Shown here in pieces: positions 12,438 through 54,400 of a DNA stretch of 57,035 bases; positions within the stretch are counted from its first letter, which is position 1, and the number at the start of each line of letters is the position of its first letter. The notes beneath the pieces are model-generated. The model searched no databases, was not told where the DNA came from, and was given only the letters and a program-made list of their open reading frames with translations. Source of the stretch: Flavobacteriales bacterium (GTDB lineage Bacteria > Bacteroidota > Bacteroidia > Flavobacteriales_F > PHOS-HE28). The position numbers and the translations under genes were made by a program. The stretch covers positions 1-57,035 of the forward strand of contig JAIOIH010000069.1 in assembly GCA_019912395.1 (NCBI GenBank), written 5' to 3'.

Positions 12438-12713
12438 ATGGCACCATTCTCTATCTTTGAGGTCAAAGCCGAGAAGATGAGTTCCGATGCCATGAAACTT
12501 GAGTTGATCCAATGGTTGTCCCAATTGGAGGACAAGGGATTGCTGACTTCGCTATTTCAGATCAAGAAGATCAACGAGAGCGCGGATTGGTATGACGAAT
12601 TAACCGAGGACCAGCGGGCTGCCATTGCTGAGGGCGAGGCGGACCTGAAAGCAGGTCGTGTCATTAGCTCCGAGGAACTTTGGAAGGAGTATGTGCGCGC
12701 TGCGAAGGGTTGA
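12438..12713 (+). CDS. Orphan antitoxin-like protein (addiction module component family)
   Basis: A 91-aa acidic helical protein; an internal ATG at 12477 would give 78 aa starting MSSDAMKLEL. The segment ADWYDELTEDQRAAIAEGEADLKAGRVISSEELWKEY matches the W-(Y/W)-D-E-L-xx-xxxxxIxxGxxDLxxGRxISxEE pattern of the putative addiction-module component family, the antitoxins of ParE/RelE-type toxins. No toxin gene follows; the next DNA holds a 42-bp palindrome and then an unrelated secreted protein. Its base composition looks lower in GC than its neighbours. It is therefore a solitary antitoxin or a remnant of a toxin-antitoxin pair. Confidence 0.65.
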   Translation: MAPFSIFEVKAEKMSSDAMKLELIQWLSQLEDKGLLTSLFQIKKINESADWYDELTEDQRAAIAEGEADLKAGRVISSEELWKEYVRAAKG

Positions 12714-12741
12714 GGGGACTGCGCGTTGAGGGTAAGAGCAG

Positions 12742-12783
12742 CCCCATTCTAATTCCCTCGAATTCGAGGGAATTAGAATGGGG
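12742..12783. repeat. Perfect 42-bp palindrome
   Basis: The left half reads CCCCATTCTAATTCCCTCGAA up to the centre between 12762 and 12763, and the right half is its exact reverse complement, ending in GGGG at 12783. There is no loop and no T-run after it. As RNA it would form a very stable hairpin (a possible terminator); as DNA it could extrude a cruciform or bind a dimeric protein. Confidence 0.9.
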
Positions 12784-12827
12784 ACCGGGCAGAGGATCGA
12801 AAAGCGTCCACAACCTGATTTCAATTA

Positions 12828-12841
12828 TGGCGGATCCGCCA
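12828..12841. repeat. Perfect 14-bp palindrome TGGCGGATCCGCCA
   Basis: A perfect palindrome centred on GGATCC, about 45 bases after the 42-bp palindrome and about 50 bases before the likely start of the next gene. It could be an operator-like site; no binder is identified. Confidence 0.5.
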
Positions 12842-12889
12842 CAATTAATATTCAGGAACATGTACATTGTCATTCAAATTCCGTTCGCG

Positions 12890-15067
12890 ATGCTACGATC
12901 CATACTCCTTGCCGCGATCCCATTTCTCACTGCATCGGTCTTCGCTCTTCAGGTGCAGCTCACGGTGGTCAATTCCACCTGCGGGAATAGCACCGGGTCC
13001 ATTACGGCCTCCACCAGTGGCGGGTCAGGGGCATACACTTTCCTCTGGGCACCGGCCCCGCCCACGGGCCAAGGAGTGAATGTGATCTCCGGATTATCTG
13101 CGGGCACATGGAGTGTAACGGTTACCGATAGCAATGGCGACAGCGGCACCGCCACGGCCACTATCATCGACCTGCCCAACTTGGATGTTCCCAATGCCAT
13201 TTTGGGAAGTTCGTTCATGGCCGCTTGCGCCGGGCAATGCACCGGTCAATTGTACCTGAATGAAAATCTTTTGGGTGGCGAAGGGCCTTACTCAATAACC
13301 ACCACGCCTCCCATGCCCTTGAACGGCATTTGTGGTGATGCCCCGTTCAACCTTCAAGTGACCGATGCGCTTGGCTGCAGCGGCATGGGCACTACAGTGA
13401 TCCCGGAGAACCATCCCGTGGCCATGCTCGGTTCCTTGGTGGAAGGCCCCTGCGGCGGTGCACCGACGAGCATCACGTTCTACTTCGACGGGCCGTTCCC
13501 GACCGGAGGTATGTGGGCTGGGCCGGGAGGTTCCGTCTCGCCACCCATGGGTGCCGCCGTTGGGCATACCTTGGTTGTCACGGCACCGCCCGGGCCTCCT
13601 GGTGTGTACGTCTATATCATCCCCAGCATTTCGCCTTGCCTGTCGGTGAACTATTTGTTCTTGATCCCTGCCACCGTTACGGATTGCGCGTCCGTGGAAG
13701 GCGATCTCTTCGTGGATGTGAACAGCAATTGCACGTACGACGGTACGGACTTTCTTCTTCCGAACAAGGTTGTCACCCTGCAATCGGGTGGGCAGGTCGC
13801 CTTGACCGATGCTTTTGGCCACTATCGCTTCCAAGTGCCCTACGGTACCTATGATCTTTCCTTCACGGATCCGGTCTATGGGCAGAATTGTGCCGTTGCC
13901 AGCCCGGTGAACTTCACCCTCGATGCGGGCACGCCTTCCACCACCATCGATCTGGCCCTCAGCAGCGGCGCTCCGGATGTCTCGATCAGTTGTGCCATCG
14001 GACAGGCTGTTCCGGGCTTTAAGCAATCCCACTGGTTGACGGTGACGAACAATAGCGCCATCCCGAGCGGGCCGCTCACCGTGACGTTGGACCATGACCC
14101 GGCGCTCACCTATACACCGGTCTGGTACTGTAGTGGGGGCGGACCTTTCTGGAACACCACCGCTTATTGGGGTTATCCGGACACGTCCGTTCCGGGGCAG
14201 GTACAATGGGAACTCCCGGGCGGATTGGAGCCGGGTGCTCAGGCATTCCTGCGTGTGGAGCTGCTCCTTCCTCCTGATGTCAACTTGATCGGGACTACAC
14301 TGAGTGCCACAGCAACTGTGATCACCCCGCTCAACGATATCGATCTCAGCAACAATGTGTGCAGCCACAGTGAAGTGGTGGTCGGCTCCTTCGACCCGAA
14401 CGACAAGCAGGGACGCACCACCTCGGGTAGCGATGTGAGCTGGATCCCGGGGCAAGACAGCACCATAACGTACACGCTTCGTTTCCAAAACACGGGCACG
14501 GCACCTGCACAAACCGTTGTGATCTCGGATACACTTCCGGGCCTGCTGGACCTTTCCACACTGCGTATTCTCGGAGCAAGCCATGCGTATGCCGTATCGC
14601 TGGACAGTGCGCGCGTACTGCGGTTCACCTACGATCACATCATGCTTCCGGACAGTGGGAGCAATGAACTGGCCAGCCATGGTTTCGCACAATTCCGGAT
14701 CAACCCGTTCCCGGATATTGCGGTGGCGAGCACCATCGATAATGCTGCGGACATCTTCTTCGACTTCAATCCACCGGTGCGTACCAACACGAGTTCGCTT
14801 ACCGTGGAAGGCACCACTGCAGTCCTCGGAACTGATGCGAAGCTCCTATCCATCTATCCGAATCCTGCGGGGGATGTGTTGATGTTCCGCACGGTCGATC
14901 CCGGTAATTACAGCGCCTACGTGGTGGCCATGGATGGTCGAGTTGTGCTGAAGACCCCGAATGTTGTCGATCGGGTGCGCGTGCAAGGGTTGGCACCGGG
15001 TGTCTATGTCCTGCGTCTCGTACGCAAGACGGGCCATGAGCTGCGATCGAGCTTCGTCAAGGATTGA
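12890..15067 (+). CDS. Secreted T9SS-sorted protein with SprB-like and DUF11-like repeats
   Basis: A 725-aa exported protein from the ATG at 12890 (MLRSILLAAIPFLTASVFA is the signal peptide); an in-frame ATG at 12860 is the alternative. Early residues resemble SprB-type repeats (NSTCGNSTGSITASTSGGSG, with LSAGTWSVTVTDSNGDSGT). A middle segment, VEGDLFVDVNSNCTYDGTDF, opens a Cna-B-like carboxypeptidase-regulatory domain. It is followed by GSFDPNDKQG and a DUF11-like repeat (ITYTLRFQNTGTAPAQTVVISDTLP). The C-terminus is a T9SS type A sorting domain (LLSIYPNPAGDVLMFR ... SSFVKD). The domain mix suggests a surface adhesin, but no ligand can be named. The longer open frame upstream runs through the palindrome and is rejected. 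Confidence 0.85.
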   Translation: MLRSILLAAIPFLTASVFALQVQLTVVNSTCGNSTGSITASTSGGSGAYTFLWAPAPPTGQGVNVISGLSAGTWSVTVTDSNGDSGTATATIIDLPNLDVPNAILGSSFMAACAGQCTGQLYLNENLLGGEGPYSITTTPPMPLNGICGDAPFNLQVTDALGCSGMGTTVIPENHPVAMLGSLVEGPCGGAPTSITFYFDGPFPTGGMWAGPGGSVSPPMGAAVGHTLVVTAPPGPPGVYVYIIPSISPCLSVNYLFLIPATVTDCASVEGDLFVDVNSNCTYDGTDFLLPNKVVTLQSGGQVALTDAFGHYRFQVPYGTYDLSFTDPVYGQNCAVASPVNFTLDAGTPSTTIDLALSSGAPDVSISCAIGQAVPGFKQSHWLTVTNNSAIPSGPLTVTLDHDPALTYTPVWYCSGGGPFWNTTAYWGYPDTSVPGQVQWELPGGLEPGAQAFLRVELLLPPDVNLIGTTLSATATVITPLNDIDLSNNVCSHSEVVVGSFDPNDKQGRTTSGSDVSWIPGQDSTITYTLRFQNTGTAPAQTVVISDTLPGLLDLSTLRILGASHAYAVSLDSARVLRFTYDHIMLPDSGSNELASHGFAQFRINPFPDIAVASTIDNAADIFFDFNPPVRTNTSSLTVEGTTAVLGTDAKLLSIYPNPAGDVLMFRTVDPGNYSAYVVAMDGRVVLKTPNVVDRVRVQGLAPGVYVLRLVRKTGHELRSSFVKD

Positions 15068-20085: not shown

Positions 20086-20266
20086 GTGTTGGACATGTAT
20101 ATCCGGCGCAGGATCTGGTAGGGGTGATCCACCGGAAACGGGTTGTTGTGAGCATACCTTGCTACCGCATCAACGGTAACAGGGAATCACCCATGACCTC
20201 CGGAAATATACGCCAGCCAAATGTCGCTCAGAGCGATTGCCCGCGTCCCACAAGGGGTTGCGGCGG

Positions 20267-20342: not shown

Positions 20343-23300
20343 ATGCTGAGAAGACTATGCTCGGCCGCTGTCATCGTCATTTGCAGTGCGCTCGGCCTGA
20401 ACGCCCAAGTGGGTTCAGGCACCCTCCAAGGCACCGTCAAGGACAAGAAATCCGCGGAACCCCTTCCTTTCGTGTCCATCATCCTGGAAAACCGAGGAGC
20501 CCGGGTCGCGGGAGGCCAGTCGGACTTCGACGGGAACTACAAGATCAGTCCCATTGAACCGGGTACGTACGACGTGACGGTGAGCTACGTGGGCTACCAG
20601 CCCACCAAGGTCACCGGCGTGGTGGTGAACAGCAACAAGATCACCTTCCAGAACTTCGAACTGAACAGCGGTGTGGAATTGGGTGATGTGGAGGTGATCC
20701 GCTACAAAGTACCCTTGATCGACAAGGACGGTGGGGCTTCGGGGTCCACGGTCACCCGGGACCAGATCGCCAAGATGCCCACCCGTTCGGCCACCTCCAT
20801 CGCCACCACGGTGGCGGGGGCAAGCACTGCGGGTACCGGTGGCGGGATCAGCATTCGGGGTTCCCGTTCGGAGAACACCTATTACTATATCGACGGGGTA
20901 AAGGTCCCGGCAGGTGCGGGGATCGGATTGCCGAAGAGCGCGATCGAGGAGGTGCAGGTGATCACCGGTGGTGTGCCGGCCAGCTATGGCGACGTGACCG
21001 GAGGTTTGGTGAACATCACCACCCGCGGGCCCAGCCGCAGTTTTTTCGGAGGGGTTGAATACCTCACTTCCGGCTACAAGACCGGGCCGGACATTACGGA
21101 CATAACCGGCTTGGACAAGTATGCCTTCAATCAGGTCGAGGCGAGCCTTTCCGGCCCCCTCTTCTTCAAGAAGGACAGCCTGGGGAACAAGGAAAAGCCG
21201 CTTCTGGGCTTCTTCTTCAGCGGGCAGGCCACCGATGTGGTGGACAACAGCCCACTCTGGAACGGTGATATCCGGGTGAAGCCCGATGTACGGGACCAAT
21301 TGCTGAGCGAACCCTACCGGTTGGTGAACGTGGCGGGCAATCCCGTGGTGCGCTATAATTCGGACTACCTGCGCGCGGGTGATGTGGAGCGCATCGACAC
21401 GCGCCAGAACGCGCGCCGCAGAAGTGCGCTTGCTTCGGGCAAGATCGACATCACCACGACCCCCACCATCAACCTGTCCGTGGGCGGTTCCATGGACCTG
21501 AGCAACCTTCAGGATTTCAACCGGAACAATTCCTTGCTCAACGCGGAGAACAATACCGAGTTCAATAATTCCACTTGGCGCACCTTCCTGCGATTCACCC
21601 AGCGGTTCAACAGCAGGGAAGAGAGCGCGGAGGACCATGACAAAGGGGGCATCAAGAACGCCTATTACAGTGTGCAGTTGGACTATTCACGGTTCAATCA
21701 GAACAGCGAGAGCCAGGACCACGGAGAGAACCTGTTCGACTATGGCTATCTGGGCAAGTACACCACCGATCGTGAGCCCACCTACAATCCATTGTCCGGA
21801 AAGCAGACCGGTTTCATGGATACCCAGGTCCATTTCACTCCGTCCGACCTGAACCCCGACGCTGCAGCGTTCCCGGAACAATACTTCTCCCTGTTCGAGG
21901 AGGGGTCCCCGTTCTACCAGAACTTCATCAATATCCAGGCAAACGGTGGTTTGTTGAATGGCAATCTTCCCGGTAGCGTGTATGGACTTTGGAACAACGT
22001 GGGCGGGCTGAGCAACCGGTATTCCAAGTACCAGAGCGACCAAGCACGCGTGTCCGCCACCGGTTCCGCCGACATCGGCAAGCACAGCGTGAGCATTGGA
22101 GTGGAGTACGAGCAGCTTACCCAGCGTTACTATCAGCTCGCTCCGGTCGGGCTTTGGGGCCGGGCACGTTCGCTCACCAACTTCCACCTTCAGGAATTGA
22201 ACCGGAACGACTCCACCCTCGTGCAGGGACCCAATGGGGTGATCTACACGAACTACAGCCGCTTGGTGGGCAATGACCAGACGGTGTTCGACTACAACCT
22301 CCGCAGCGCCTTGGGCCTGGACCCGCGCGGAACGGACTTTATTGATGTGGATGCGCTGGACCCCTCGGTGTTTTCCTTGGACATGTTCTCTCCGGACGAA
22401 CTGATCCAGGACGGTATCGGAGTCTCCAGCAGCACGCGCGGGGGGATCATCAATAGCTTCTACGGATATGACTACACCGGGAAGAAGCTCACCCAGCGCC
22501 CCAGCTTATCCGATTTCTTCAACGACTATGCCATGGTGGGGAACGATACCTCCTACACCCGGGTGCAGGCGCCTTTCCAACCGATCTACGTGGCCGGCTA
22601 TGCGATGGACAAGTTCGCCTTCGACGACATCATCTTCAACGTGGGCATTCGCGTGGACCGCTACGATGCGAACCAAAGCGTGCTGAAGGATCCCTATCTG
22701 TGGCGTCCTGCCCATACGGCCGGTGATCCCCAGGTGCAAGACCTCTACGCAGGAAACAACCCCAGGCCGGGCAATATCGGGGATGATTATGTGGTGTACG
22801 TGAACAACATCGAGGAACCGACGGCCATCGTGGGTTACCGGGACGGGGACACATGGTACAACGCCCAAGGGGAGACCGTGGTAGACCCCTCCGTACTGCG
22901 CCAGTCCGATGGTATCCAACCGTACCTGGTCGACTACAAGAACGACCCCAGCGGCAGCTTGGTGGGTTCCAAGCTTCGTCAAGAGGCCTTTGAAGTGTAT
23001 AACCCCAAGGTGAACGTGATGCCCCGCATCGCCTTTTCCTTCCCCATCAGTGACGAGGCGGTGTTCTTTGCGCACTACGACATTCTCACCCAGCGTCCCA
23101 CGGGCTTCAGCCGCTTGGACCTGTTGGGCTACGCCTACATTGAGAACACTGGAGATATTCTCAATAACCCCAACCTGAAGCCGACAAAGACCATCGATTA
23201 CGAGCTGGGCTTTCAGCAGGTATTGAGCAAGTCCTCTTCCCTGAAGCTCTCCGCCTACTACCGCGAGCTGCGCGACCAGATCCAGGTGCGCAACGTGGCC

Positions 23301-24071
23301 CAGGCGTGGCCCAGCACATACCGCACGTACGACAACGTGGACTTCGGCAACGTCATCGGCTTCACCACCACCTACGATCTGCGGCGCACCAAGAACGTGT
23401 GGCTGCGCGCCAGTTACACCCTGCAGTTTGCCAAGGGCACGGGTTCCGACCCCAACACCACCCTTTCGTTGATCAATGCCAACCAGCCTAATTTGCGCAC
23501 GATCTTCCCGCTGAGCTTCGATCAGCGCCATCGCTTCCAAGGCACGGTGGACTTCCGCTACGGCGAGGGCAACGACTACAATGGCCCCATGCTCTTCGGC
23601 AAGAAGATCTTCCAGCGCACGGGGATCAACATTGTGGCCGACCTGGGTAGCGGTACACCGTACAGCCGTTCATCCAGGGTGTATAACGAAGGAGAGGGCA
23701 CCGGTTCCTACCAATTGGACGGATCCCTCAACGGCGCGAACCTGCCGTGGCAGTTCAACACCGACCTGGTGATCGACCGTGACATTCCATTGGTGTTCGG
23801 CAAGGACAAGGGTGACAAGGCCAAGCGCACCAACCTCAACGTGTACCTGTTGGTGAGCAACGTGCTCAACACCCAAGTGATCACCAATGTTTACCGGGCC
23901 ACGGGTGCGGCGGATGATGATGGCTTCCTGGCTTCCGCCCAGTATGCCAGCTATATCGCATCGAAGAACGACCCGCAAAGCTACAGCGACATGTACGCGT
24001 TGAAAGTGAACTCACCATACAACTACGGGGCACCGCGCACCATTCGTCTGGGTGCCCGCTTCGACTTCTGA
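20343..24071 (+). CDS. Large TonB-dependent receptor with carboxypeptidase-like domain
   Basis: A 1242-aa outer-membrane receptor. The ATG at 20343 begins a signal peptide ending in ALGLNAQ. A carboxypeptidase-like domain (LQGTVKDKKSAEPLPFVSII) occupies roughly residues 28-105. The plug follows: a conserved IDKDGGASGSTVTRDQIAKMP segment, then GISIRGSRSENTYYYIDGVKV and EVQVITGGVPASYGDVTGGLVN. The barrel is unusually long, with large extracellular loops, and ends in TIRLGARFDF. No SusD-like partner is present. Instead it is followed after 22 bases by a 1392-aa secreted protein and then a PorV-like protein, so it may work with these rather than in glycan uptake. The substrate is unknown. The open frame upstream to 20124 crosses the promoter and is rejected. 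Confidence 0.9.
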   Translation: MLRRLCSAAVIVICSALGLNAQVGSGTLQGTVKDKKSAEPLPFVSIILENRGARVAGGQSDFDGNYKISPIEPGTYDVTVSYVGYQPTKVTGVVVNSNKITFQNFELNSGVELGDVEVIRYKVPLIDKDGGASGSTVTRDQIAKMPTRSATSIATTVAGASTAGTGGGISIRGSRSENTYYYIDGVKVPAGAGIGLPKSAIEEVQVITGGVPASYGDVTGGLVNITTRGPSRSFFGGVEYLTSGYKTGPDITDITGLDKYAFNQVEASLSGPLFFKKDSLGNKEKPLLGFFFSGQATDVVDNSPLWNGDIRVKPDVRDQLLSEPYRLVNVAGNPVVRYNSDYLRAGDVERIDTRQNARRRSALASGKIDITTTPTINLSVGGSMDLSNLQDFNRNNSLLNAENNTEFNNSTWRTFLRFTQRFNSREESAEDHDKGGIKNAYYSVQLDYSRFNQNSESQDHGENLFDYGYLGKYTTDREPTYNPLSGKQTGFMDTQVHFTPSDLNPDAAAFPEQYFSLFEEGSPFYQNFINIQANGGLLNGNLPGSVYGLWNNVGGLSNRYSKYQSDQARVSATGSADIGKHSVSIGVEYEQLTQRYYQLAPVGLWGRARSLTNFHLQELNRNDSTLVQGPNGVIYTNYSRLVGNDQTVFDYNLRSALGLDPRGTDFIDVDALDPSVFSLDMFSPDELIQDGIGVSSSTRGGIINSFYGYDYTGKKLTQRPSLSDFFNDYAMVGNDTSYTRVQAPFQPIYVAGYAMDKFAFDDIIFNVGIRVDRYDANQSVLKDPYLWRPAHTAGDPQVQDLYAGNNPRPGNIGDDYVVYVNNIEEPTAIVGYRDGDTWYNAQGETVVDPSVLRQSDGIQPYLVDYKNDPSGSLVGSKLRQEAFEVYNPKVNVMPRIAFSFPISDEAVFFAHYDILTQRPTGFSRLDLLGYAYIENTGDILNNPNLKPTKTIDYELGFQQVLSKSSSLKLSAYYRELRDQIQVRNVAQAWPSTYRTYDNVDFGNVIGFTTTYDLRRTKNVWLRASYTLQFAKGTGSDPNTTLSLINANQPNLRTIFPLSFDQRHRFQGTVDFRYGEGNDYNGPMLFGKKIFQRTGINIVADLGSGTPYSRSSRVYNEGEGTGSYQLDGSLNGANLPWQFNTDLVIDRDIPLVFGKDKGDKAKRTNLNVYLLVSNVLNTQVITNVYRATGAADDDGFLASAQYASYIASKNDPQSYSDMYALKVNSPYNYGAPRTIRLGARFDF

Positions 24072-24093
24072 TCCACTCTGAAAGGCTGATACC

Positions 24094-27000
24094 ATGAACA
24101 CATTTCGCCTCCCCTCCCTGACGCTCGCCCTGGTGGCTGCCACGGTGCTTTTCGCACGCGAGGTGCCCGGGGTGGGACCCCGGTCCAGTGGCAATTCCGC
24201 CGGTGGCCGGGCCGCAGCCTGCTCCCCCGCCACGGCCCACGAGGAACTGGACCTCAACAATGTGCGCGCCCGCATCGAGAACGGCGGTACCCTTTGGGAG
24301 GATCGGTCGACCGGTAAACCAGCCTATGAGATCCCCAAGACCGACGACCGGACCGGTGCCAATGCATTGTTCGCGGGTGCCCTTTGGATGGGTGGCCTAT
24401 CCCCCGACAACACGCTCAAGCTCGCTGCGGTCCGTTTCAGGCAGGTTGGAAATGACTACTACCCCGGACCGCTCACCGCCTATGATACGCTCACGAACGA
24501 AGGTGATGCTTCCGTGGACGGTACCGTGTGCTCCGAGTACGATCAGATGTGGAAGACCAAGCGGCAGGACGCTCAGAAGCAGGACGCGTACTTCCGCTGC
24601 CTCGCAGACCCGTTGTGCGATGAGAACATCGAGTTTCTCGGCTATACGGTACCCGGTTACTTCTTCGATTGGCCGGCCCACGGTGATGTATCCAAGGGGC
24701 AGGACTACAACCTGGCCCCGTACCACGATTCACCGTATAGTGAACAAGGTGTATACGACCCGCAGAACGGTGACTATCCCGGCTATGACCTGGCCGGCGT
24801 GATCGATTGCAAGGCCAAGCGCCGCGAGGATGCCATTCCATTGTTCGGCGACCAGAACATCTGGTGGGTGTTCAATGACAAGGGCAATACCCACACGGAA
24901 TCCGGTGGACAGCCCATCGGCATGGAGATCCGGGCCCAAGCCTTCGCCTTCAGCACCAATGACGAGGTCAACAACATGACCTTTTACAACTATGTGTTGA
25001 TCAACCAAGGCACGCAGACCCTTACCCAGACCTATTTCGGCCAGTGGGTGGACGTGGACCTCGGAGGTGCGAACGATGACTATGTGGGTTGTGACGTGGA
25101 GCGCGGCCTGGGCTACGGCTATAATGGCGATGCTGTGGACGAGGGCGCCAATGGAAGTCCGGGCTATGGTGGCCCGAACCCTCCCCCGCCCGCTGTGGGC
25201 GTGGACTTCTTCGAGGGACCCTATCAGGATTACGACGGCTTGGACAACCCCTTGACCACGGATTGCCAGATGGCACGGGACATGGACGGTATTCCCTATG
25301 GCGGCATCGGTATCGGCTATGGTGATAGTGTCCCCGACAACGAGCGCTACGGCATGCGTGCCTTTGTATATCACAATAATGCGTCCGGTGCCATCGGTGA
25401 CCCCAGTAACGCGGGACAGTACTATGGCTACCTGAAGGGGATCTGGGGTGACAACACCCTGATGACCTACGGCGGAAACGGCTATAACCCCTCCGGCGGT
25501 GGCACCCGGGCCTATTACATGTTCCCCGGCACCTCGGACCCCTTGGGCTGGGGTACGGACTGCACGCCACAACCCGTATGGGATGAGGTTACCGCAGGCA
25601 ACGCTCCGGAGGACAGGCGCTTCATTCAGAGCGCAGGACCGTTCACCTTGGAGCCGGGAGCCTACAACAACATCACCGTTGGGGTGGTCTGGGCCAGGGC
25701 CGCAAGCGGCGATGTGCAGGCCAGCGTGAACCTCATGCGCAAGGCCGACGACAAGGCCCAGTCCCTCTTCGATAACTGTTTCCGCATCCTCAATGGTCCC
25801 GATGCTCCGGAGCTGACTATCCAGGAATTGGACCGCGAGCTGATCCTGTACATCACCAACCCGCAAGGAAGCAACAATTTCAATGAGGAGTATGTGGAAC
25901 TGGACGCCACCATTCCGCCCACCAGCGAGGTGATCATCTACGACGTTCAAACCTTGTATGATGCCAATGGGGACTCCGTCGGGGTGTTCCAGGTACCCGC
26001 GGGCATCCAAACAGTGAACAACGACCGGAACTACCGCTTCCAAGGTTACCAGATCTACCAGGTGAAGGATGCCACCGTTTCGCCGGACGAGGTGCGGAAC
26101 ACCGATAAGTCCCGGTTGGTTGCCCAAGTGGACATCCAGGACGGCATCACCCAGTTGATCAACTGGGTGGCGAACCCGGAACTCAACATGCCCGTGCCGG
26201 AGGAACGCGTCTTCGGAACCGACACCGGAGTGGTGCATTCCTTCCGCATCCTGGAGGATAAGTTCTCCACTGGTGATCCGCGGTTGACGAACTTCAAGAC
26301 CTACCACTACATGGCCTTGGCTTACGGCTACAACGAATACCAGCCCTACGATGCGGCAACCCTGACGGGCCAACCCTATCCGTACCTGGCTGGCCGCAAG
26401 TCCCCCACGGGATCCATCCGCTCCTATTCGGGTATCCCCCACAAGCCCAGCGTGGAGAACGGTGGTACCGTGCTGAACGCACAGTACGGCGATGGCTTCC
26501 GGATCACGCGATTGGAAGGCCAGGGCAACGGGGGTAATCCCGTGGCCGTGGACGGATCCACCTTGGACGCCATCATGGCCTCGCCCATATATCGTGTGGA
26601 TGAGATCAAGTACAAAAAGGGCCTGGGACCGGTGAACATCAAGGTGGTGGACCCCTTGAAGGTGCCTGCTGGTGATTTCGAGCTGTGGATCGTCGATACG
26701 ACGAGCATACCATCTCCCACTGCACCGATCACCTACAAGCGATTGCAGGATGCGAGCTGGATGCTGGTCCGTCTATCCTCGACACCAACGGACGGGGACA
26801 CGGTCCGTTCCACCCGCACGATCCAGCTCCAGAACGAGCAGTTGATCCCCCAATGGGGCCTCTCGGTATCGATCACGCAATCCCTCTATTCGGGAACGGC
26901 GGACAAGTACACTGAGTTCCTGGGCAGCCTCAAGGAACCCTCCGGGGTGGATTGGTACGCGGGCATACCGGACCTGGAAGGCGAGCAGGTGCAGAACTGG

Positions 27001-28272
27001 ATACGTTCGGGTACCTCCCTGGATACCGCTACGCTGCTCTATCCGGACTATGAAGGAGTGGATCCCGGTCAGGAGTACGAGCAAGTGCTTGGCGGCACGT
27101 GGGCACCATGGGCCTTGGTTGGCCGGAACAGCTCCCAGCCGGGTGCCGCCTCCATGAAGTCCTCGCAGCTCAATGCCGTCATCAAGGATATTCCGAGCGT
27201 GCAGGTGGTAATGACCCCGGACAAGAGCAAGTGGAGCCGCTGCATCGTGGTTGAGCAAAGTGATGATCTGGCCTTCACCACGCCTGCGAATGTGAAGAAG
27301 CTCTACATGCGGCCGGTTGCCAGTGTGGACAAGAACGGACTTTCCGCAGGTATGCCCGGCGCCAACGTGGACGAGGCGAATGCGGTGAACGCCACCGGCA
27401 TGAGCTGGTTCCCCGGTTATGCCGTGGACATGGAGACCGGTGAGCGGTTGAACATCTTCTTCGGTGAGAACAGCTTCGCCGGCGGAGGCATCGGCAGGGA
27501 CATGCTCTGGAACCCGAGCGACATGCTCTACAACCAGGGTTCCCAAGCGGTCTTCGGAGGAGGACATTGGATCTATGTGTGCATGAACCTGCGCAGGACC
27601 TTCCCGGCCAGCTTGGCTGCCAACCGGATGCCGCAGTATGACGAATGCGCCTTTGCCCGATCGAAGATGGACGTCAGTACGGACATCTCTGTGCGCAGTG
27701 TGTATGACGGCGTGGCTTGGGTGGGTTCGGGCCTGCTGGCCGAGGGGATGCAGATGAAGTCTCCCCAGCAAGGCTTGGTGCCTTCGGAGGTGCGCCTGCG
27801 GATGGACGTGGACAAGCCCTACCACATCTACACCCAACCTTACGCCGCCTATGTACCGGAGATCATTGTGGCGCGCAACCGCGGATTGCCGCTGTATACC
27901 TTCAATACCGGCGAATCGGTCGCGGAGGTCAATGTCACCGCAGTGGGCAAGGAGGAACTGGACATCATCGGCATAGTGCCCAATCCGTACTATGCGTACA
28001 GTGGCTATGAGACCACGCGCTTGGACAATCGGGTGAAGTTCATCAACCTGCCCAAGACCTGCACCATCAGCATCTACACCGTGAGCGGCACCCTGGTGCG
28101 CAAGTACAAGAAGGACAATGAGCTCACCTATCTGGATTGGGACCTGAAGAACAACTATAACGTCCCCATCTCGGGGGGCACCTATCTCTGCCATATCGAT
28201 GCGCCGGGATTGGGCGAGAAGGTCATTAAATGGTTCGGGGTCATCCGTCCGGTGGATCTCCAGAATTTCTAA
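24094..28272 (+). CDS. Large secreted protein of the TonB-receptor/PorV-like unit
   Basis: A 1392-aa exported protein of unknown function. Residues 1-22 are a signal peptide (MNTFRLPSLTLALVAATVLFA). An N-terminal segment reads RARIENGGTLWEDRSTGKPAYE then ALFAGALWMGGLSPDNTLKLAA, a phrase I associate with a recurrent Bacteroidota family of very long extracellular proteins. The middle is rich in G, D, Y and N, as in secreted beta proteins. The C-terminus (TCTISIYTVSGTLVRKY ... WDLKNNYNVPISGGTYLCHIDA ... GVIRPVDLQNF) resembles the FlgD-like/T9SS target fold but is not a canonical type A sorting domain. It lies between a TonB receptor and a PorV-like gene with 22- and 18-base gaps, so the three are surely one operon. 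Confidence 0.8.
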   Translation: MNTFRLPSLTLALVAATVLFAREVPGVGPRSSGNSAGGRAAACSPATAHEELDLNNVRARIENGGTLWEDRSTGKPAYEIPKTDDRTGANALFAGALWMGGLSPDNTLKLAAVRFRQVGNDYYPGPLTAYDTLTNEGDASVDGTVCSEYDQMWKTKRQDAQKQDAYFRCLADPLCDENIEFLGYTVPGYFFDWPAHGDVSKGQDYNLAPYHDSPYSEQGVYDPQNGDYPGYDLAGVIDCKAKRREDAIPLFGDQNIWWVFNDKGNTHTESGGQPIGMEIRAQAFAFSTNDEVNNMTFYNYVLINQGTQTLTQTYFGQWVDVDLGGANDDYVGCDVERGLGYGYNGDAVDEGANGSPGYGGPNPPPPAVGVDFFEGPYQDYDGLDNPLTTDCQMARDMDGIPYGGIGIGYGDSVPDNERYGMRAFVYHNNASGAIGDPSNAGQYYGYLKGIWGDNTLMTYGGNGYNPSGGGTRAYYMFPGTSDPLGWGTDCTPQPVWDEVTAGNAPEDRRFIQSAGPFTLEPGAYNNITVGVVWARAASGDVQASVNLMRKADDKAQSLFDNCFRILNGPDAPELTIQELDRELILYITNPQGSNNFNEEYVELDATIPPTSEVIIYDVQTLYDANGDSVGVFQVPAGIQTVNNDRNYRFQGYQIYQVKDATVSPDEVRNTDKSRLVAQVDIQDGITQLINWVANPELNMPVPEERVFGTDTGVVHSFRILEDKFSTGDPRLTNFKTYHYMALAYGYNEYQPYDAATLTGQPYPYLAGRKSPTGSIRSYSGIPHKPSVENGGTVLNAQYGDGFRITRLEGQGNGGNPVAVDGSTLDAIMASPIYRVDEIKYKKGLGPVNIKVVDPLKVPAGDFELWIVDTTSIPSPTAPITYKRLQDASWMLVRLSSTPTDGDTVRSTRTIQLQNEQLIPQWGLSVSITQSLYSGTADKYTEFLGSLKEPSGVDWYAGIPDLEGEQVQNWIRSGTSLDTATLLYPDYEGVDPGQEYEQVLGGTWAPWALVGRNSSQPGAASMKSSQLNAVIKDIPSVQVVMTPDKSKWSRCIVVEQSDDLAFTTPANVKKLYMRPVASVDKNGLSAGMPGANVDEANAVNATGMSWFPGYAVDMETGERLNIFFGENSFAGGGIGRDMLWNPSDMLYNQGSQAVFGGGHWIYVCMNLRRTFPASLAANRMPQYDECAFARSKMDVSTDISVRSVYDGVAWVGSGLLAEGMQMKSPQQGLVPSEVRLRMDVDKPYHIYTQPYAAYVPEIIVARNRGLPLYTFNTGESVAEVNVTAVGKEELDIIGIVPNPYYAYSGYETTRLDNRVKFINLPKTCTISIYTVSGTLVRKYKKDNELTYLDWDLKNNYNVPISGGTYLCHIDAPGLGEKVIKWFGVIRPVDLQNF

Positions 28273-28290
28273 GCCGTCATACTTGGTACA

Positions 28291-29358
28291 ATGTTGAACA
28301 GCATGAGGATGAAGATTACAGGAGCTCGTATGATGGCGGGTCTCGGCATGGCCTTGATCGCCGGAGGCGCCATGGCCGGCAACCCGGACCGCGCCGGGTC
28401 CGCTGGGGCAACGCAGTTGTTGGTGAACCCGTGGGCGCGCAGCAACGGCTGGTCCTTGGCCAATTCCGCCGCGCTCCGCGGGGCTGAAGGGATGTTCGGC
28501 AACGTGGCCGGTCTGGCCCATGTGCGCAAGACCGAGGTGCTCTTTACCAGCACGCGCTGGCTGGAGGGTAGCGGGGTGAAGGTGAACGCGGTGGGCTTCG
28601 GCCAGAAGCTTGGTGAAAGCGGCGTGATCGGCCTCACGGCCACCACTTTCTCCTTCGGGGATATCCCGGTGACCACCATCGATCAACCCGAAGGGGGCTT
28701 GGGCACGTTCAGCCCTACCCAGGCCAACATCGGATTGGCCTATTCCAAGGCGTTCTCGAACAGCATCTTCGGCGGTCTGCTCGTGCGGGTGGTCTCGGAG
28801 TCCATCGCCAACGTGCGCACTTCCGGTGTCTGCTTTGATGCGGGGATCCAATATGTGACCGGTCCCACGGACAATGTTCACTTCGGCATCTCGCTGAAGA
28901 ACGTCGGACCGGCGATGCAGTTCAGCGGGGATGGCCTGGCGCTTCAGGGATTGCTGGTCGGCGGGGACCACACCCTCACCCTGGAGCAGCGTTCGGCGGA
29001 GTTCGAGCTCCCATCGATGATGAACATCGGCATGGCCTATGATATCAACATCAGTGAGCTTCACCGGGTAACCGTGGCGGGCACCTTCACCTCCAACTCC
29101 TTCACCCGGGACCAGTTCATCCTCGGTGCGGAGTACGCCTTCAAGAAGATGATCCACCTGCGCGGTGGCTACCTCTACGAGAAGGACGTGACCGACGGCG
29201 AACTGCGCGAGACGGTGTTCACCGGTCCCAGTGCCGGGGTGAGCGTGGATTTCCCCTTCGGGGCGGAGAAGAAGAGCGCTATCGCGATCGATTACGCCTA
29301 TCGGGCCACCAATCCTTTCAGCGGGGTACACAGCATCGGGGTTCGTTTGAGCCTTTGA
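28291..29358 (+). CDS. PorV/PorQ-family outer-membrane barrel protein
   Basis: A 355-aa product with a signal peptide ending near GGAMAG (an internal ATG at 28303 is an alternative start). The mature N-terminus, AGSAGATQLLVNPWARSNGWSLANSAALRG, is the PorV/PorQ signature in which an N-terminal motif precedes a FadL-like 14-strand barrel; the remaining sequence is strongly alternating and ends in SIGVRLSL. PorV is the T9SS outer-membrane protein that binds sorting domains and shuttles cargo; PorQ binds the sortase. This copy is not in a por cluster but is the third gene of the TonB-receptor unit, so it may be a dedicated partner for the 1392-aa protein. That pairing is inference. Confidence 0.85.
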   Translation: MLNSMRMKITGARMMAGLGMALIAGGAMAGNPDRAGSAGATQLLVNPWARSNGWSLANSAALRGAEGMFGNVAGLAHVRKTEVLFTSTRWLEGSGVKVNAVGFGQKLGESGVIGLTATTFSFGDIPVTTIDQPEGGLGTFSPTQANIGLAYSKAFSNSIFGGLLVRVVSESIANVRTSGVCFDAGIQYVTGPTDNVHFGISLKNVGPAMQFSGDGLALQGLLVGGDHTLTLEQRSAEFELPSMMNIGMAYDINISELHRVTVAGTFTSNSFTRDQFILGAEYAFKKMIHLRGGYLYEKDVTDGELRETVFTGPSAGVSVDFPFGAEKKSAIAIDYAYRATNPFSGVHSIGVRLSL

Positions 29359-29379
29359 CCCGGAACTGTATTATCTTTG
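29346..29379 (+). promoter_or_regulatory. Putative greA promoter (TTTG-N22-TATCTTTG)
   Basis: TATCTTTG (29372-29379) matches the -7 consensus exactly, and TTTG at 29346-29349 could serve as -33. The -7 box lies directly before the terminator hairpin, so a greA transcript would begin next to or inside that hairpin. Confidence 0.4.
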
Positions 29380-29382
29380 GAG

Positions 29383-29404
29383 AAGGACCCGGAGGGGTCC
29401 TTTT
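29383..29404 (+). terminator. Intrinsic terminator after the PorV-like gene
   Basis: AAGGACCC (29383-29390) pairs with GGGTCCTT (29395-29402) around a GGAG loop and runs into TTTT. It lies 25 bases after the PorV-like stop and would end the three-gene transcript. Confidence 0.7.
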
Positions 29405-29462
29405 CCATGCTACCCGTACATCGTACCACTACAAGCAATCGCCGGGATCGGCGAGAATCAAC

Positions 29463-29936
29463 ATGAGCACCACGGCCTATTACACCGAGGAGGGCTTTCG
29501 GAAACTACAGGAGGAACTTCACCGCCTCAAGACCGTTGATCGCCTCCACATCAGCCACCAGATCGCTGAAGCCCGCGATAAGGGCGACCTGAGTGAGAAC
29601 GCCGAATACCACGCTGCAAAGGAGGACCAGGGCTTGTTGGAGGCCAGGATCGCCAAGATGGAGGAGGTGCTCGCCAACGCGCGGGTGATCGATCCCGAAC
29701 AGGTGGATACCGATAAGGTCTACATACACTCCACCGTGAAAGTGAAGCAGGTGGGCAGCAACATGGAGCGCTCCTTCACCTTGGTGGCGGAAAGCGAGTC
29801 GGACATCAAGTCCGGCAAGATCAGCGTGAACTCACCCATCGGCCAAGGGTTACTGGGCAAGCAGGTGAAGGAAGTGGCCGAGATCAGGACACCCAACGGG
29901 ACCACGCGCTTCGAGGTGATCGAGATCTCCCGCTGA
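29463..29936 (+). CDS. greA: Transcription elongation factor GreA
   Basis: Rescues backtracked RNA polymerase by stimulating transcript cleavage through the secondary channel. The 157-aa product is the usual size and has the coiled-coil N-terminal domain with the acidic tip EARDKGDLSENAEYHAAKEDQ (pieces at residues 36-55) and a C-terminal FKBP-like domain with ISVNSPIGQGLLGKQVKE. ATG at 29463 is chosen because the frame upstream has no family similarity. Its stop overlaps the HIT gene start by one base (TGATG), so the two are co-translated. Confidence 0.96.
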   Translation: MSTTAYYTEEGFRKLQEELHRLKTVDRLHISHQIAEARDKGDLSENAEYHAAKEDQGLLEARIAKMEEVLANARVIDPEQVDTDKVYIHSTVKVKQVGSNMERSFTLVAESESDIKSGKISVNSPIGQGLLGKQVKEVAEIRTPNGTTRFEVIEISR

Positions 29937-44266: not shown

Positions 44267-46096
44267 TTACTTCAACGCGATGCGCTGCACGTTGTAGTTG
44301 GTGCCATCACCCACACGGATGGTGTAGATGCCAGCAGCATTGCCGGAGAGGTCCAGCGAGGTCTCCGTACCGTTGAAGCTGGCGGTCTGCACCAAGGTGC
44401 CCAAGGTGTTGTACACCTCCACGGTCATATGGCCGGTGATCTCCGAGCGGATCTGCACCGGGCCGGTGGTGGGGCTTGGGTACATGGTCACTCCTTGCAG
44501 AGCGGGAGCCTCCTGTACGCCCACACCGAGCATTTTGGAGAGGCGCACTGCCCAAGCGGTGCCGTTGCCGCCGTACAGGTTGATGTTCTGGTCGTCAACG
44601 GGGATCCACAGCATGCTGGCGATAGAGGGCTGGGGTACGGTCTCGTCATCGAGGATGAAGAGGTCGTTGCCGCTTTCCTGGAACATGTTCGCGGAGACGA
44701 AATAGGCACCGGGGTTGAGCATGATCGGATCGAGGAAGGAGAGCCCGACCACACCTCCATTGTCGAGGTCTGTCTGGGAGATCACCCGGATGTCCGACTG
44801 TGCCAATGGGGACGAAAGGTCGGGAGTGCTGGCAAGTACATCCGCGGTATCGTACACGGACATGGTGAAGTAGCTGCCCGCATCCGTATTACTGCTCAAG
44901 ACGATCTCACCACCATAGAACATCTCCCCGGTCTGGATCTCGAAGTAGTTGAGCAGGCGCACGTCCTGTGTGTTGTCGGTGAAGGAGCCGGTTCCTGCTT
45001 GGGAGAGACTAAGGATCGAATCCGGGACCATGTCAATACCGTCCAAGGTGTACAGGTCGTTCGAAACCTGGAAATAGCGGTACGCGAAGTTGTTGCTCAT
45101 GTTGTCATCCATGCCGATCTGATCGCTGGTCACGGTGAAGTAGGCCGTGTATATTCCGACCGGAGTGGGGCTGGGCAATGTGATGTTGGCCTCGGCCACC
45201 GAGGTGTCCCCGTTCAGCATTGTGCCGATCGGTACGATGGCAGACCCAATTTCGGTCATGCTTTCGTCCATGAGGGAAATGGAAACCGACACATTGGTCT
45301 GATCGTTGGCTCCGAAGTTGATGACCCCGGCGCCCACGTCCAGCGTGGAAGGCATCTGGCTTTGTGGCACCCGGCCGTACTCGTATCCTCCGCCGAACTG
45401 GGCCGTGTAGCCGTAGTCCATGATGATCTCGTGGTCAGGCAAGGTGATCACGGCAACATCGTCGATCATCCACGCATAGTCGCAGCCACCCTCATAGCGG
45501 AACCGGATCAATGCACTGGCGGCTCCGCCGATCTGGCTGGACAGGTTCACGGACAGCAGTTCCGGATTGTCCGTGATGCTGTTCCCTCCAATATCATTGA
45601 TCTGGGTCGTTGTCCACGTGGCACCGTTGTCAATGCTGGTCTCCACATAGCAAGTGCCTTGGAACTCGCGATAGAATTGTTCGAACTGGAGAACTACACC
45701 GGAATAGGCGCTCAGGTCGATCGGGTTCGCCATGGCGATCCAGGCGTTCTGGAGGCCGCCGCAAAGGAGGTCGGAGTCGAACAGGGCGAAACCATTGGCG
45801 GCCGTGGTGGATTCGATGGTGCCGATGGTGTAGGGTCCGGTGGAACCCGTGGTGCCGATCACCCAGTTATCGTTGTTGGGGTCATTGATGTTCCCAATGT
45901 TCCAAGTGGCTGGATTCGAGAAATCATCGGTCCAGATCACTTCGCGGTTCGCCGAATAGCCGACGGGCACGTGGTGGGCGGGTTGCGCCGTGATCCGCTG
46001 CTTGAGGACGCGGTTGTGCGCGCTTCCGTTTGATTGCGCCATGGCGGTGCCCCCGATCAGGGACAGGGCCAAGGCCGAAATGTAGAGTTTGTTCAT
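44267..46096 (-). CDS. Secreted T9SS-sorted tandem paralogue 3
   Basis: A 609-aa exported protein with a signal peptide (MNKLYISALALSLIGGTAMAQ). Its head (REVIWTDDFSNPATWNIGNIND ... ESTTAANGFALFDSDLLCGG ... CDYAWMIDDVAVITLPDHEI) is another jellyroll-like domain, distinct in sequence from paralogues 1 and 2. After the GGGYEYGRVPQSQMP phrase it joins the conserved portion, with an Ig-like repeat (TNVSVSISLMDESMTEIGSA), the NTQDVRLLNYFEI block, and the sorting domain ending QRIALK. It is the most upstream member of the array and has its own -7 element. Confidence 0.88.
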   Translation of the reverse strand: MNKLYISALALSLIGGTAMAQSNGSAHNRVLKQRITAQPAHHVPVGYSANREVIWTDDFSNPATWNIGNINDPNNDNWVIGTTGSTGPYTIGTIESTTAANGFALFDSDLLCGGLQNAWIAMANPIDLSAYSGVVLQFEQFYREFQGTCYVETSIDNGATWTTTQINDIGGNSITDNPELLSVNLSSQIGGAASALIRFRYEGGCDYAWMIDDVAVITLPDHEIIMDYGYTAQFGGGYEYGRVPQSQMPSTLDVGAGVINFGANDQTNVSVSISLMDESMTEIGSAIVPIGTMLNGDTSVAEANITLPSPTPVGIYTAYFTVTSDQIGMDDNMSNNFAYRYFQVSNDLYTLDGIDMVPDSILSLSQAGTGSFTDNTQDVRLLNYFEIQTGEMFYGGEIVLSSNTDAGSYFTMSVYDTADVLASTPDLSSPLAQSDIRVISQTDLDNGGVVGLSFLDPIMLNPGAYFVSANMFQESGNDLFILDDETVPQPSIASMLWIPVDDQNINLYGGNGTAWAVRLSKMLGVGVQEAPALQGVTMYPSPTTGPVQIRSEITGHMTVEVYNTLGTLVQTASFNGTETSLDLSGNAAGIYTIRVGDGTNYNVQRIALK

Positions 46097-51109: not shown

Positions 51110-51470
51110 GGGCGGCAAGATAGATGTGGTGGTCGAAGGAGGCCGCTCATTCACGTATGATGGCGAGCTCACTTCTGCAATAATGCCAACATCAAGTTGA
51201 GCTTATGCCGCTCCTCTAAATGGCTTTGGCCATCCCTCGGTCAAGAGAAGCTCTTCCGGCATTGTGGTCCCGGAGCGCTGAAAGAACAAGACCGGAAATC
51301 GGATCGGACAGGACTGAACGACCTTTGCATCGGGAGTCGTCCCGAGTGGCCTTTTTGAGCAGTACTGATCGACTGCACCAAAGTATCGGTCGGACCCTTA
51401 ATAACAAGCTCAACTGTCCATCCCGTTCTTGGCCGGGAATGTTGGAATGCACGGTAATTTGGTTTTCTCA
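51110..51470. other. Gene-poor stretch between PIG-L and the FG-GAP gene
   Basis: About 360 bases with no convincing gene. They hold a -7-like TATCTTGC on the minus strand (51115-51122) for the PIG-L gene, a GACCTTTG (51320-51327) on the plus strand close to TAnnTTTG, and a small hairpin TCGGGA-GTCG-TCCCGA (51330-51345) followed by a short T-run. The hairpin could be a leader structure for the downstream gene or a stray terminator. Confidence 0.5.
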
Positions 51471-54400
51471 ATGGTCCGCTCCAGGCAAACATGGGTATTG
51501 GGGCTAGGGGTAGCCTTGGCTTGGTGGTGCCTAAGCATCGGTGTCGGGGTGCGTAACGATGCGCCTGGCATCATGGATCGTTGGGGTTTGGGCCACACCT
51601 TCAATGGTGCTGATCGAAAGGGGCCGCTACATGGGGTGGCGGCCCCGATGACCGGGAGGTTGGAGGATGGATATGCCATCACCGGACAAGCTGGTGCATA
51701 CCAGAGCTGCAATCCCAAGCAGGGCCTGCGGACTGATTACCGGAAGGATGGTTTCGACCTGTTAGTGGAGGCTTGTGGAGAAGAGCATCGGATCTCCTTT
51801 TCCTTGGTGGGCATCGGAGGAGGAGACACTGTTCTGCAGGCCCGCGATTCTGTTGACGGACGGTTCAATGAAGGTCGCTTGGAAATGGACCATGGGAGCT
51901 TTCGTATGGTGTATGAGAACACTCCGGATGGCATGCGCCACGACCTTGTGGTGAAGGAGAGGCCCGGATGCGGTGGTCGTTTGGAAGCCCGTTTCCTACT
52001 ATCCGGAGATCTGCAGGCTTGGCAACCCGACCCGAATGAGGTGGTATTCCACAGCTTCGACAGGGGCGCCATGGCCATGGTGCCAGCATTGCGGTATAAC
52101 AGCCTGAAGGCATGGGATGCCAGCGGGCGGGTGCTGCCATCCAGCATGGAATTGCACGGTGACCAATTGGTGCTTTCAGTGGCGGATAATGGGGCGAAGT
52201 ACCCGGTCACGATCGATCCACTATCCTCCACCGCCGACCTGGTGCTCTCGGGTAGCCAGACGGGGGAAAATTTTGGCTACAGTGTGGCTACCGCCGGGGA
52301 TGTGAACGGCGATGGCTATAGCGACATCCTGGTGGGTTCACCCAACTGGAACACCCCATTCGCGAACGGGGGGCGTGTACAACTTTTCCTTGGTTCGGCC
52401 AGCGGCATTGCAGCCACGGCAGCTTGGACCTTGGATGGTCCTCAGGTCAACGTTCGACTGGGCTTCAGCATTTCAACGGCAGGCGACCTGAACGGAGATG
52501 GATACAGCGATGTGGCCATTGGTGCACCTGGATTGTTGGGCAGGGGTGCCGTGGTAGTGTTCCTGGGATCCGCAGGTGGATTGGGGGCTACCCCCGCATT
52601 TACCTTGTTTGGCGATTCACAGAGTGGGTGTGAGTTCGGCTGGTCCGTTGCCTTGGCCGGGGATGTGAACGGGGACGATCACAGCGACCTCTTGGTGGGG
52701 GCCCCCCTATTTAACAACGGCGGTGCGGCACGGGGAAAGGCCTATTGCTATTATGGACAGGCCGGCACCTTGAATTTGGGCTGGTCATTTGCCGGCACCG
52801 TGACCAACGCGCAGTTCGGGTCCAGCGTGGCGGGTGTGGGCGATCTGAACGGCGACGGCCTCAGCGATGTGGCCATCGGTGCACCCTATCAGCCCAAGTT
52901 CCCCGGGACCAACAACGGTGCCGTTTATGTATTCCGTGGGAATGCAGGTACCGGCTTGAGCGCGGGGGCGAGCAGCATGCTCACCGGGGTGGGGAGTGCT
53001 AATTTCGGCTATAGCATTTCCAGTGCCGGGGACATGAACGGGGACGGCTATTCGGACCTTCTGGTCGGTGCACCCGCTACGTCAAGCGGCAATGGCGCGG
53101 TCCATCTGTATGTGGGGACTGCGGCGGCTAGCATGGTCCCTGCTACAGCGGCAAGTACCTTGGCAGGTTCCGGGGGTGAACGGCTGGGCAGTTCCGTATC
53201 CTTGGCCGGGGATGTGAACGGGGACGGCTATGCCGACGTGATCATGGGCAGCCCGAATTCCGGAACGGACAAAGGGAAAGTGCGGGTGTACAAAGGAGGA
53301 CCGACCGCGCTGTTCGATGCTTCGCACTTGTATTGGACCCGCACGGGATCGATCGCTGGTGCCTATTTAGGCGCTGCGGTTGCCACCGGAGGTGATGTAA
53401 ATGGTGACGGCATAAGCGACCTGTTGCTCGGAGCTCCGGGCCAAGCGGGTACCGGCGTGGTGAGCATCTTCCACGGCAAGCCGGACCTACCCTCCAGTAC
53501 GATACAGTGGTCTTCCCTTGGTACCCAGAACAACGGATACATGGGCCGTTCAGTGGCCTCTGCAGGTGATGTGAACGGCGATGGTTATAGTGATGTGCTC
53601 ATTGGCGCTTCGGGCATGGATGGTGCCAAGGGGCGGGCCATGCTCTTCCTTGGTTCAGCCAGCGGCTTATCCGCTACCCCGGCCTGGACCACATACGGCG
53701 AGAATGCTCTTGACCAGTTCGGCTATTGCGTGGCCTCTGCCGGTGATGTGAACGGCGATGGCTACAGCGATGTATTGGTGGGGGCAGCTTCTTGGCCGAA
53801 CTATGCGTGGACCGGTAAGGCATACCTCTATTATGGCGGCCCCGCAGGACTATCGCCCACTGCGGCATGGACACTTACCGGGACCTTGCCGGATGACCGC
53901 TTCGGTTATGCCTTGTCCAGCGCTGGCGATGTGAACGGCGATGGCTACAGCGATGTGGCCGTGGGGGCGTACATGTACAATTCGGGACAGGGAAGGGCCT
54001 TTGTGTTCCACGGATCGGCGAGTGGCCTTGCCTCCACAGCGGATTGGGTGGGTACCGGGGATCCACAATCCTTCTACGCGGCCAGTATTTCGCTGGCTGG
54101 CGATGTGAACGGTGATGGCTATGATGACCTCATCGTGGGGGCTCCCCTGCACGATCTTGCCGGGGGGAACAATTATGGCGCTGCATTGGTCTATCATGGA
54201 TCGCCAGCGGGCCTCTCCCCGGTAGCAAACTGGTCTGAGTTCGGTGAAGTACCTGGGGACCAGTTCGGAGAGAGCGTGTCCATGGCCGGGGATGTGAACG
54301 GGGACGGGTACAGCGATGTGGTGATCGGTGCTTACATGCACACCAGTGGCGGGCAAGGCTCGGCAGGCCGAGCCTACGTTTTCCATGGCACGCCCACCGC

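Follow-up and report, generated by a model that had tools for sequence, protein, structure and literature searches.

Our analysis of a 57,035 nucleotide (nt) stretch of DNA from a Flavobacteriales bacterium (assembly GCA_019912395.1, contig JAIOIH010000069.1, positions 1 to 57,035; "the window" below) concerns three adjacent genes that encode a TonB-dependent receptor (TBDR), a large exported protein that we call the cargo, and an outer-membrane barrel of the PorV/PorQ family. On balance, and with modest confidence, we favour the idea that these form one outer-membrane module, in which a surface partner exported by the type IX secretion system (T9SS) stays uncleaved, is held by a dedicated PorQ/PorV-like anchor, and serves the TBDR as SusD serves SusC. 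Export of the cargo by the T9SS is well supported by sequence comparison and structure models; retention of its sorting domain on the barrel would follow the precedent of PorZ and PorU, and we infer a surface complex with the receptor that captures a ligand and takes it up by a TonB-driven step. The neighbourhood counts given below show that the clustering of the three genes is more than chance. The features are as follows, in coordinates of the + strand of the window, on which all three cassette genes lie (aa, amino acids; ORF, open reading frame):

20343..24071, + strand: TBDR, 1242 aa; ORF from the ATG at 20343, with CarboxypepD_reg and Plug domains, and no STN domain or SusC (TIGR04056) match at E≤1
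24094..28272, + strand: cargo, 1392 aa; ORF, export signal judged by eye, conserved across Bacteroidota
24211..25782, + strand: cargo residues 40–563, super-β-sandwich (GH65/GH94/GH116-like) followed by a linker helix in the AlphaFold model
27925..28269, + strand: cargo residues 1278–1392, C-terminal domain of the T9SS sorting type, with a short tail and a nearly invariant Lys1379 (PorZ model, structure, alignment)
28291..29358, + strand: PorV/PorQ-family outer-membrane barrel, 355 aa, in a subgroup of its own (NF033709; tree)
29378..29407, + strand: terminator-like hairpin with a 13-bp stem (folding energy against shuffles)
29463–29936: greA, downstream of the hairpin

Gene order, distribution and joint divergence

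The initial annotation of this DNA had described a unit made up of a 1242 aa TBDR, a 1392 aa exported protein and a PorV/PorQ-family barrel, with gaps of 22 nt (TBDR to cargo) and 18 nt (cargo to barrel), and the ORFs and domain scores agree with that description. It had also proposed asking whether homologues of the giant protein are always flanked by the other two families, and at the loci examined they nearly always are. The order TBDR-cargo-barrel on one strand is found at 40 of the 44 full-length cargos of the window's class and its near relatives (39 directly and one with an additional open frame between), and at 33 of the 35 full-length cargos outside the class; the median gaps over 71 cassettes are 26 and 21 nt, as measured on longest reading frames. 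These counts take in only cargos of >850 aa with both end domains, leave out those truncated at contig ends (L055, L056, L077, L083, L163 and L164), and treat locus L160 as a cassette despite an extra open frame between its cargo and barrel; loci L036–L054 come from a related-locus search that names organisms, not class. In alignments A1 and A3 the rows taken from loci are short of their final residue. The closest relatives of the window's source in a related-genome comparison are Flavobacteriales and Bacteroidetes metagenome assemblies. Relatives of the cargo are present in 55 of 58 related genomes, and by profile (E≤1e-10, two candidates scored per genome) a phylum-wide sample of 392 genomes has the family in 192, a figure that is not a count of cassettes because the matches include proteins sharing only part of the cargo.

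In the window's class and its near relatives greA, identified by a short motif in its sequence, comes next in all 37 cassettes that have enough sequence beyond the barrel for it to be seen (in L054, L061 and L074 the sequence is too short), so this copy of the cassette probably descends from a single ancestral locus. So steady a place is what might be expected of a housekeeping or structural part, and it is one of two observations in favour of a rather unlikely alternative, in which there is no import and the receptor-like and PorV-like barrels hold or display a structural surface protein; the other is that no enzyme recurs beside the cassette in the neighbours scanned. Such surface assembly sits poorly with the Plug domain and the TonB-box-like stretch that the receptor retains (below), and the 9–14 diverged copies found in each of three genomes outside the class fit ligand-specific uptake better.

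These three genomes (G396, G321 and G297) hold 14, 20 and 22 genes above the PorV/PorQ cut-off, 56 in all, and 35 of the 56 are closely preceded by a sorting domain and, 4.0–6.4 kb upstream, by a Plug domain on the same strand, which gives 9, 14 and 12 cassettes per genome. In the control direction, with a Plug downstream within 8 kb, the count is 2 of 56, and a chance cluster is ruled out by these numbers together with the 40 of 44 and 33 of 35 above. The survey used 52 of 92 sorting-domain hits (those with E≤4.8e-11 and two weaker hits that adjoin barrels; these two lack a Plug and contribute nothing to the 35), and each of the 35 stretches that were fetched has three long reading frames in a row. 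To judge from coordinates there are four possible order variants (G297:C84, G321:C3, G396:C2 near 8–16 kb, and G321:C13), with the cargo ahead of the receptor in three and the barrel first in one.

The three members diverge together. Over 34 of the 35 cassettes (L201 was dropped by a length threshold) the Mantel correlations are 0.93 for TBDR and cargo, 0.91 for TBDR and barrel, and 0.89 for cargo and barrel, with none of 5000 permutations as high in any comparison, and for 26 to 27 of the 34 cassettes the closest relatives sit in another of the three genomes. The cassettes therefore look, from their sequences, to be inherited as units with no visible exchange of partners.

The three proteins, their genome and the locus

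The initial annotation called the 1392 aa protein a giant with no named domain. This stands to the extent that no Pfam family matches it at E≤1; its last 115 aa taken alone, on the other hand, score 18.0 bits against the TIGR04183 (type A sorting domain) cut-off of 23, just below it (the whole protein scores 9.8 bits). At E≤0.1 the PorZ model and TIGR04183 each match all 70 of the homologous C-terminal domains compared, and the PorU model matches 66 of them. A nearly invariant lysine is described for type A sorting domains (PMC10994853), and Lys1379 is kept in 90% or more of the 70 domains. The closest solved structure to the modelled C-terminal domain is PorZ (Z 11.3, rmsd (root-mean-square deviation) 2.5, 92 residues aligned, 22% identity), followed by two DUF3244 immunoglobulin-like (Ig-like) proteins with Z of 8.9 and 8.4; since the sorting domains of mirolase, PorU, RemZ, RemA and NucA (Z 7.0–7.5) score no higher than unrelated Ig-like domains, the PorZ match is the telling one. 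The cargo thus has the C-terminal Ig-like β-sandwich of a T9SS sorting domain by structure comparison, and PorZ is also the sole match in a profile search of the PDB (Protein Data Bank) with the cargo (E 0.41). A profile built from the cassette domains matches PorU and PorU2 and misses a short paralogue's canonical type A domain, weak evidence in that the search held three sequences and its E-values apply to those three only. By sequence and model, the cargo C-terminus is a T9SS sorting-type domain, closest to that of PorZ and related to that of PorU. The short paralogue (L078:5742-7541, contig C39 of the window's own genome) has 600 aa, resembles the cargo's N-terminal domain and carries a canonical type A domain (TIGR04183, 42.8 bits); short paralogues like it recur in relatives.

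The N-terminal half of the cargo, modelled by AlphaFold as residues 30–640 (mean pLDDT, the predicted confidence score, 70.1), finds 9ju0 as its best match (VIA Z 18.6, rmsd 3.0, 247 residues aligned), and its fold matches the super-β-sandwich of GH65, GH94 and GH116 enzymes, glucoamylase and dextran dextrinase. The match to these enzymes is limited to the N-terminal part of their chains, which is not the catalytic part; the fold suggests a sugar-related ligand. Residues C43, C146 and C333 are invariant in 31 aligned cargos (window 24094–28272) and possibly form disulfides.

The barrel scores 138.3 bits against the PorV/PorQ family model NF033709 (cut-off 90), and 47.1, 64.7 and 33.5 bits against the PorV, PorQ and PorV2 equivalogs, whose cut-offs of 250, 220 and 325 it does not reach. 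In a tree, 61 cassette barrels fall on one side of a branch with 75% support when the misplaced row L175 is left out, and the matching branch has 98% support with that row included. A PDB sequence search with the barrel gave no matches.

The receptor matches the Pfam families Plug (41.5 bits, cut-off 23.9) and CarboxypepD_reg (59.1 bits, cut-off 32.3); it has no Pfam match for the 22-strand β-barrel of such receptors, and its homologue in L145 matches PF00593. A PDB sequence search with it matched only carboxypeptidase D. A simple TonB-box pattern was matched by no more than 8 of the receptor rows tested. In an alignment of the region a stretch before the Plug is kept: of the 105 filled rows, 104 have V or I at position 118 and 94 have Pro124; this is the putative TonB box.

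The genomic company of the cargo is that expected of a T9SS substrate: SprA is encoded by all 192 genomes with the cargo family, and the family occurs in 0 of 73 genomes without SprA (counts uncorrected for kinship). The window's own genome has SprA, PorU, PorV and PorQ, with PorU-PorV and PorU2-PorV2 as neighbouring gene pairs; the cassette contributes a further pair of this sort, here coupled to a TBDR. In PorU2-PorV2 (L079:1860-8323, contig C22), another barrel-cargo pair, the PorV2 gene adjoins that of a 1691 aa PorU2 (peptidase C25) whose C-terminal stretch weakly matches PorZ. Elsewhere in this genome (L080:4238-7434, contig C81) the gene of a 285 aa PorV-family protein (52.9 bits, below the cut-off) adjoins one for a 779 aa ComEA/helix-hairpin-helix protein, and the window itself encodes two more proteins with above-cut-off T9SS type A sorting domains (44267–46096 and 12680–15067) as well as a 1451 aa protein (51429–55784) that at E≤1e-5 matches nothing in NCBIfam except the short XAC2610 domain model.

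SusD (PF07980) is not matched in the window's genome at E≤1e-5 (one candidate scored). Of the 91 genomes that hit the cassette strongly (E≤1e-40), 6 have at least five SusD, against 122 of the 301 others, and 39 have any SusD, against 181 of the 301; with at most five SusD scored per genome and kinship uncorrected, the mutual avoidance of SusD and the cassette is only a trend.

Of the transcription signals that the initial annotation proposed, the terminator after the last gene is borne out by the hairpin at 29378–29407 just 3' of the barrel gene (-24.3 kcal/mol, z -3.0), while a generic terminator scan of the window was not above shuffles (7 found, 8.2 expected). The promoter-like site upstream fared worse, as the sigma-70 scan found no promoter 5' of the receptor gene. 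The Bacteroidota-type promoter motif is TTTG-N17-23-TAnnTTTG, and no full site of this kind lies 5' of the receptor gene; TATCTTTA at about 20289 differs from it, by eye, at one base. The whole window has only two full sites, at 12427 and 29346, and the latter (29346–29379) stands before greA. The receptor's reading frame is already open from a GTG at 20124.

A possible mechanism and its alternatives

If the three proteins do form one module, the cargo would leave the periplasm through the SprA translocon by way of its C-terminal sorting domain, as its sequence, fold and co-occurrence with SprA suggest. The domain would then stay on the cargo and dock on the extracellular loops of the cargo's own PorQ/PorV-like barrel, as in the precedents PorZ-PorQ and PorU-PorV, with no lipid anchor. 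Held in this way, the sugar-fold cargo would sit over the TBDR and capture a ligand, probably a glycan or glycoconjugate, which would be passed to the TBDR for TonB-driven import. The working would be like that of SusCD, with the SusD lipoprotein replaced by a partner that is delivered by the T9SS and held by a barrel.

The initial annotation suggested that the barrel may be a private shuttle for the giant protein. The sorting-type domain on the cargo does make a link to a PorV-family protein plausible. An anchor is likelier than a shuttle because the domain is closest to that of PorZ and related to that of PorU, both of which are retained, and because the barrel is not a PorV or PorQ equivalog. 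A transient shuttle, in which the barrel briefly carries the cargo and PorU then cleaves the domain, leaving the cargo free or attached to lipopolysaccharide, seems to us unlikely. PorV is described as acting so for type A cargos (PMC5562754), TIGR04183 does match all 70 domains at E≤0.1, and PorU is present; against this stand the nearest structure, which is the retained domain of PorZ, the profile that finds PorU and PorU2 and not a canonical type A domain (weakly, among three sequences), and the fact that cassette cargos bring a barrel of their own when a general PorV is already there.

We give little credence to a third alternative, in which the genes are co-regulated and co-inherited, no complex forms, and the barrel serves some related ligand as a channel of the FadL kind. 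PorV is reported to be a FadL homologue (PMC12578637), solo cargos exist, and contact among the three is hypothetical. The barrel nevertheless lies above the PorV/PorQ family cut-off and comes after a sorting-type domain, and PorU2-PorV2 is a comparable pair in the same genome.

Several points weigh against the uptake module that we favour. Some concern the reach of the evidence: the three multi-copy genomes were picked for their many candidates, the 35 cargos outside the class belong to loci selected among the best profile hits (all E≤1e-50), the window's cargo falls below the type A cut-off, and the cargo models are of middling confidence (the C-terminal one, residues 600–1392, has a mean pLDDT of 66.3), with no fold obtained for the middle of the protein (about 640–1270), which was modelled together with the sorting domain, whose matches took up the list. 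Others concern the trio itself. The correlation between sorting domain and barrel is only 0.12 once TBDR distance is removed, so co-divergence does not single out a contact between these two, and linked inheritance alone can make trees agree without contact. Four full-length cargos (L059, L060, L064 and L087) stand alone, the two partnerless cargos outside the class lie in tandem at a single locus (L158), and the cargo fragments L083 and L163 have no recognised receptor upstream; the four solo cargos and the two fragments speak against a strictly private trio, the other part of the shuttle proposal. Each of the four is a second copy, in a genome with a complete cassette as well, whose partners it may share. 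Finally, no enzyme recurs in a scan of 12 genes that neighbour cassettes outside the class (29 downstream ones were listed, most of them unscanned), and so it is the fold alone that points to glycan uptake.

The same scan disposes of a polysaccharide utilisation locus, as the 12 neighbours include one S9 peptidase and one borderline PIG-L deacetylase, and the others no sugar-breakdown enzyme. In L133, L134, L135, L138 and L141–L144 a gene for a 680–740 aa protein follows the barrel, and the two of these that were scanned (L133 and L141) match multi-haem cytochrome and TPR models; the barrel of L146 is followed by a GWxTD-domain protein.

Other candidates were rejected more simply. The Bacteroidota BAM (β-barrel assembly machinery) complex is reported to have a FadL-like BamG and a surface lipoprotein BamH (PMC12611786), and a BAM subunit was set aside since PorZ is all that the cargo retrieves in the PDB profile search and the window's barrel has no BamG match (the homologous barrel of L146 has a weak one, 26.2 bits against a cut-off of 250). 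A SusCD system is excluded by a receptor with no TIGR04056 match in a genome with no SusD match, and a type B/SprF pair by the scan against the curated library, which includes PorP/SprF and type B models, none of which matched. A lipoprotein cargo is rejected because the window's protein does not match the lipobox pattern; the pattern does match 9 of 79 cargos from loci, in most of which the cysteine lies either past the point where a signal peptide would normally be cut or well away from the hydrophobic stretch, and the L143 cargo among them is possibly a lipoprotein.

Relation to known systems

Among the systems closest to the cassette are two pairs from the T9SS attachment complex, PorZ-PorQ and PorU-PorV, each having a T9SS-exported surface protein that keeps its sorting domain and a PorV/PorQ-family barrel that holds it; in Porphyromonas gingivalis PorZ and PorU are described as held at the surface by PorQ and PorV (PMC5562754, PMC10202324). 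The cassette differs from them in that its cargo has an N-terminal super-β-sandwich where PorZ has β-propellers and PorU a peptidase, its barrel does not reach the equivalog cut-offs for PorV or PorQ, and it includes a TBDR and is present in many copies in some genomes. With SusCD it shares a TBDR gene that adjoins the gene of a large surface partner, and multiple copies in some genomes; the claim that it is nonetheless different from SusCD holds at the gene level, given a genome without a SusD match, a cargo without a lipobox match and a receptor without a TIGR04056 match, and the partner here bears a T9SS sorting-type domain and has a barrel. Type B cargos with PorP/SprF-like anchors (SprB-SprF and PG1035-PorP) likewise join a T9SS surface protein to a cognate barrel (PMC9143113), whereas the cassette has a PorV/PorQ-family barrel, a domain of the PorZ/type A kind, and a TBDR. 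BtuB-BtuG and other complexes of a TonB-dependent transporter with a surface partner (PMC12578637) are similar, except that the partner there is a lipoprotein. Each part of the cassette thus belongs to or resembles a known family, and the combination and its reach appear undescribed; our literature search, in a library with a minority of subscription papers and without bioRxiv preprints, found no description of the three-gene unit, which is weak evidence of absence. Overall, the interpretation in the initial annotation is partly supported.

It is conceivable, although we hold it as a tentative generalisation, that such cassettes are phylum-wide TonB import machines with a T9SS-delivered outer partner pinned beside its receptor by a dedicated PorQ/PorV-like barrel through an uncleaved domain, that they partly replace SusCD in SusD-poor lineages, and that they explain why the PorV-family genes of some Bacteroidota far outnumber what secretion requires. 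Secretion and import would then be coupled, in that the T9SS would help to build a nutrient-import system, and many PorV-family genes that lack a known role would gain a function. Cognate PorV-like barrels have been proposed to shield the sorting domain from cleavage (PMC10202324), and the cassette is a direct test ground for that proposal. It is also a candidate import system for Bacteroidota that lack SusD, such as the source of the window.

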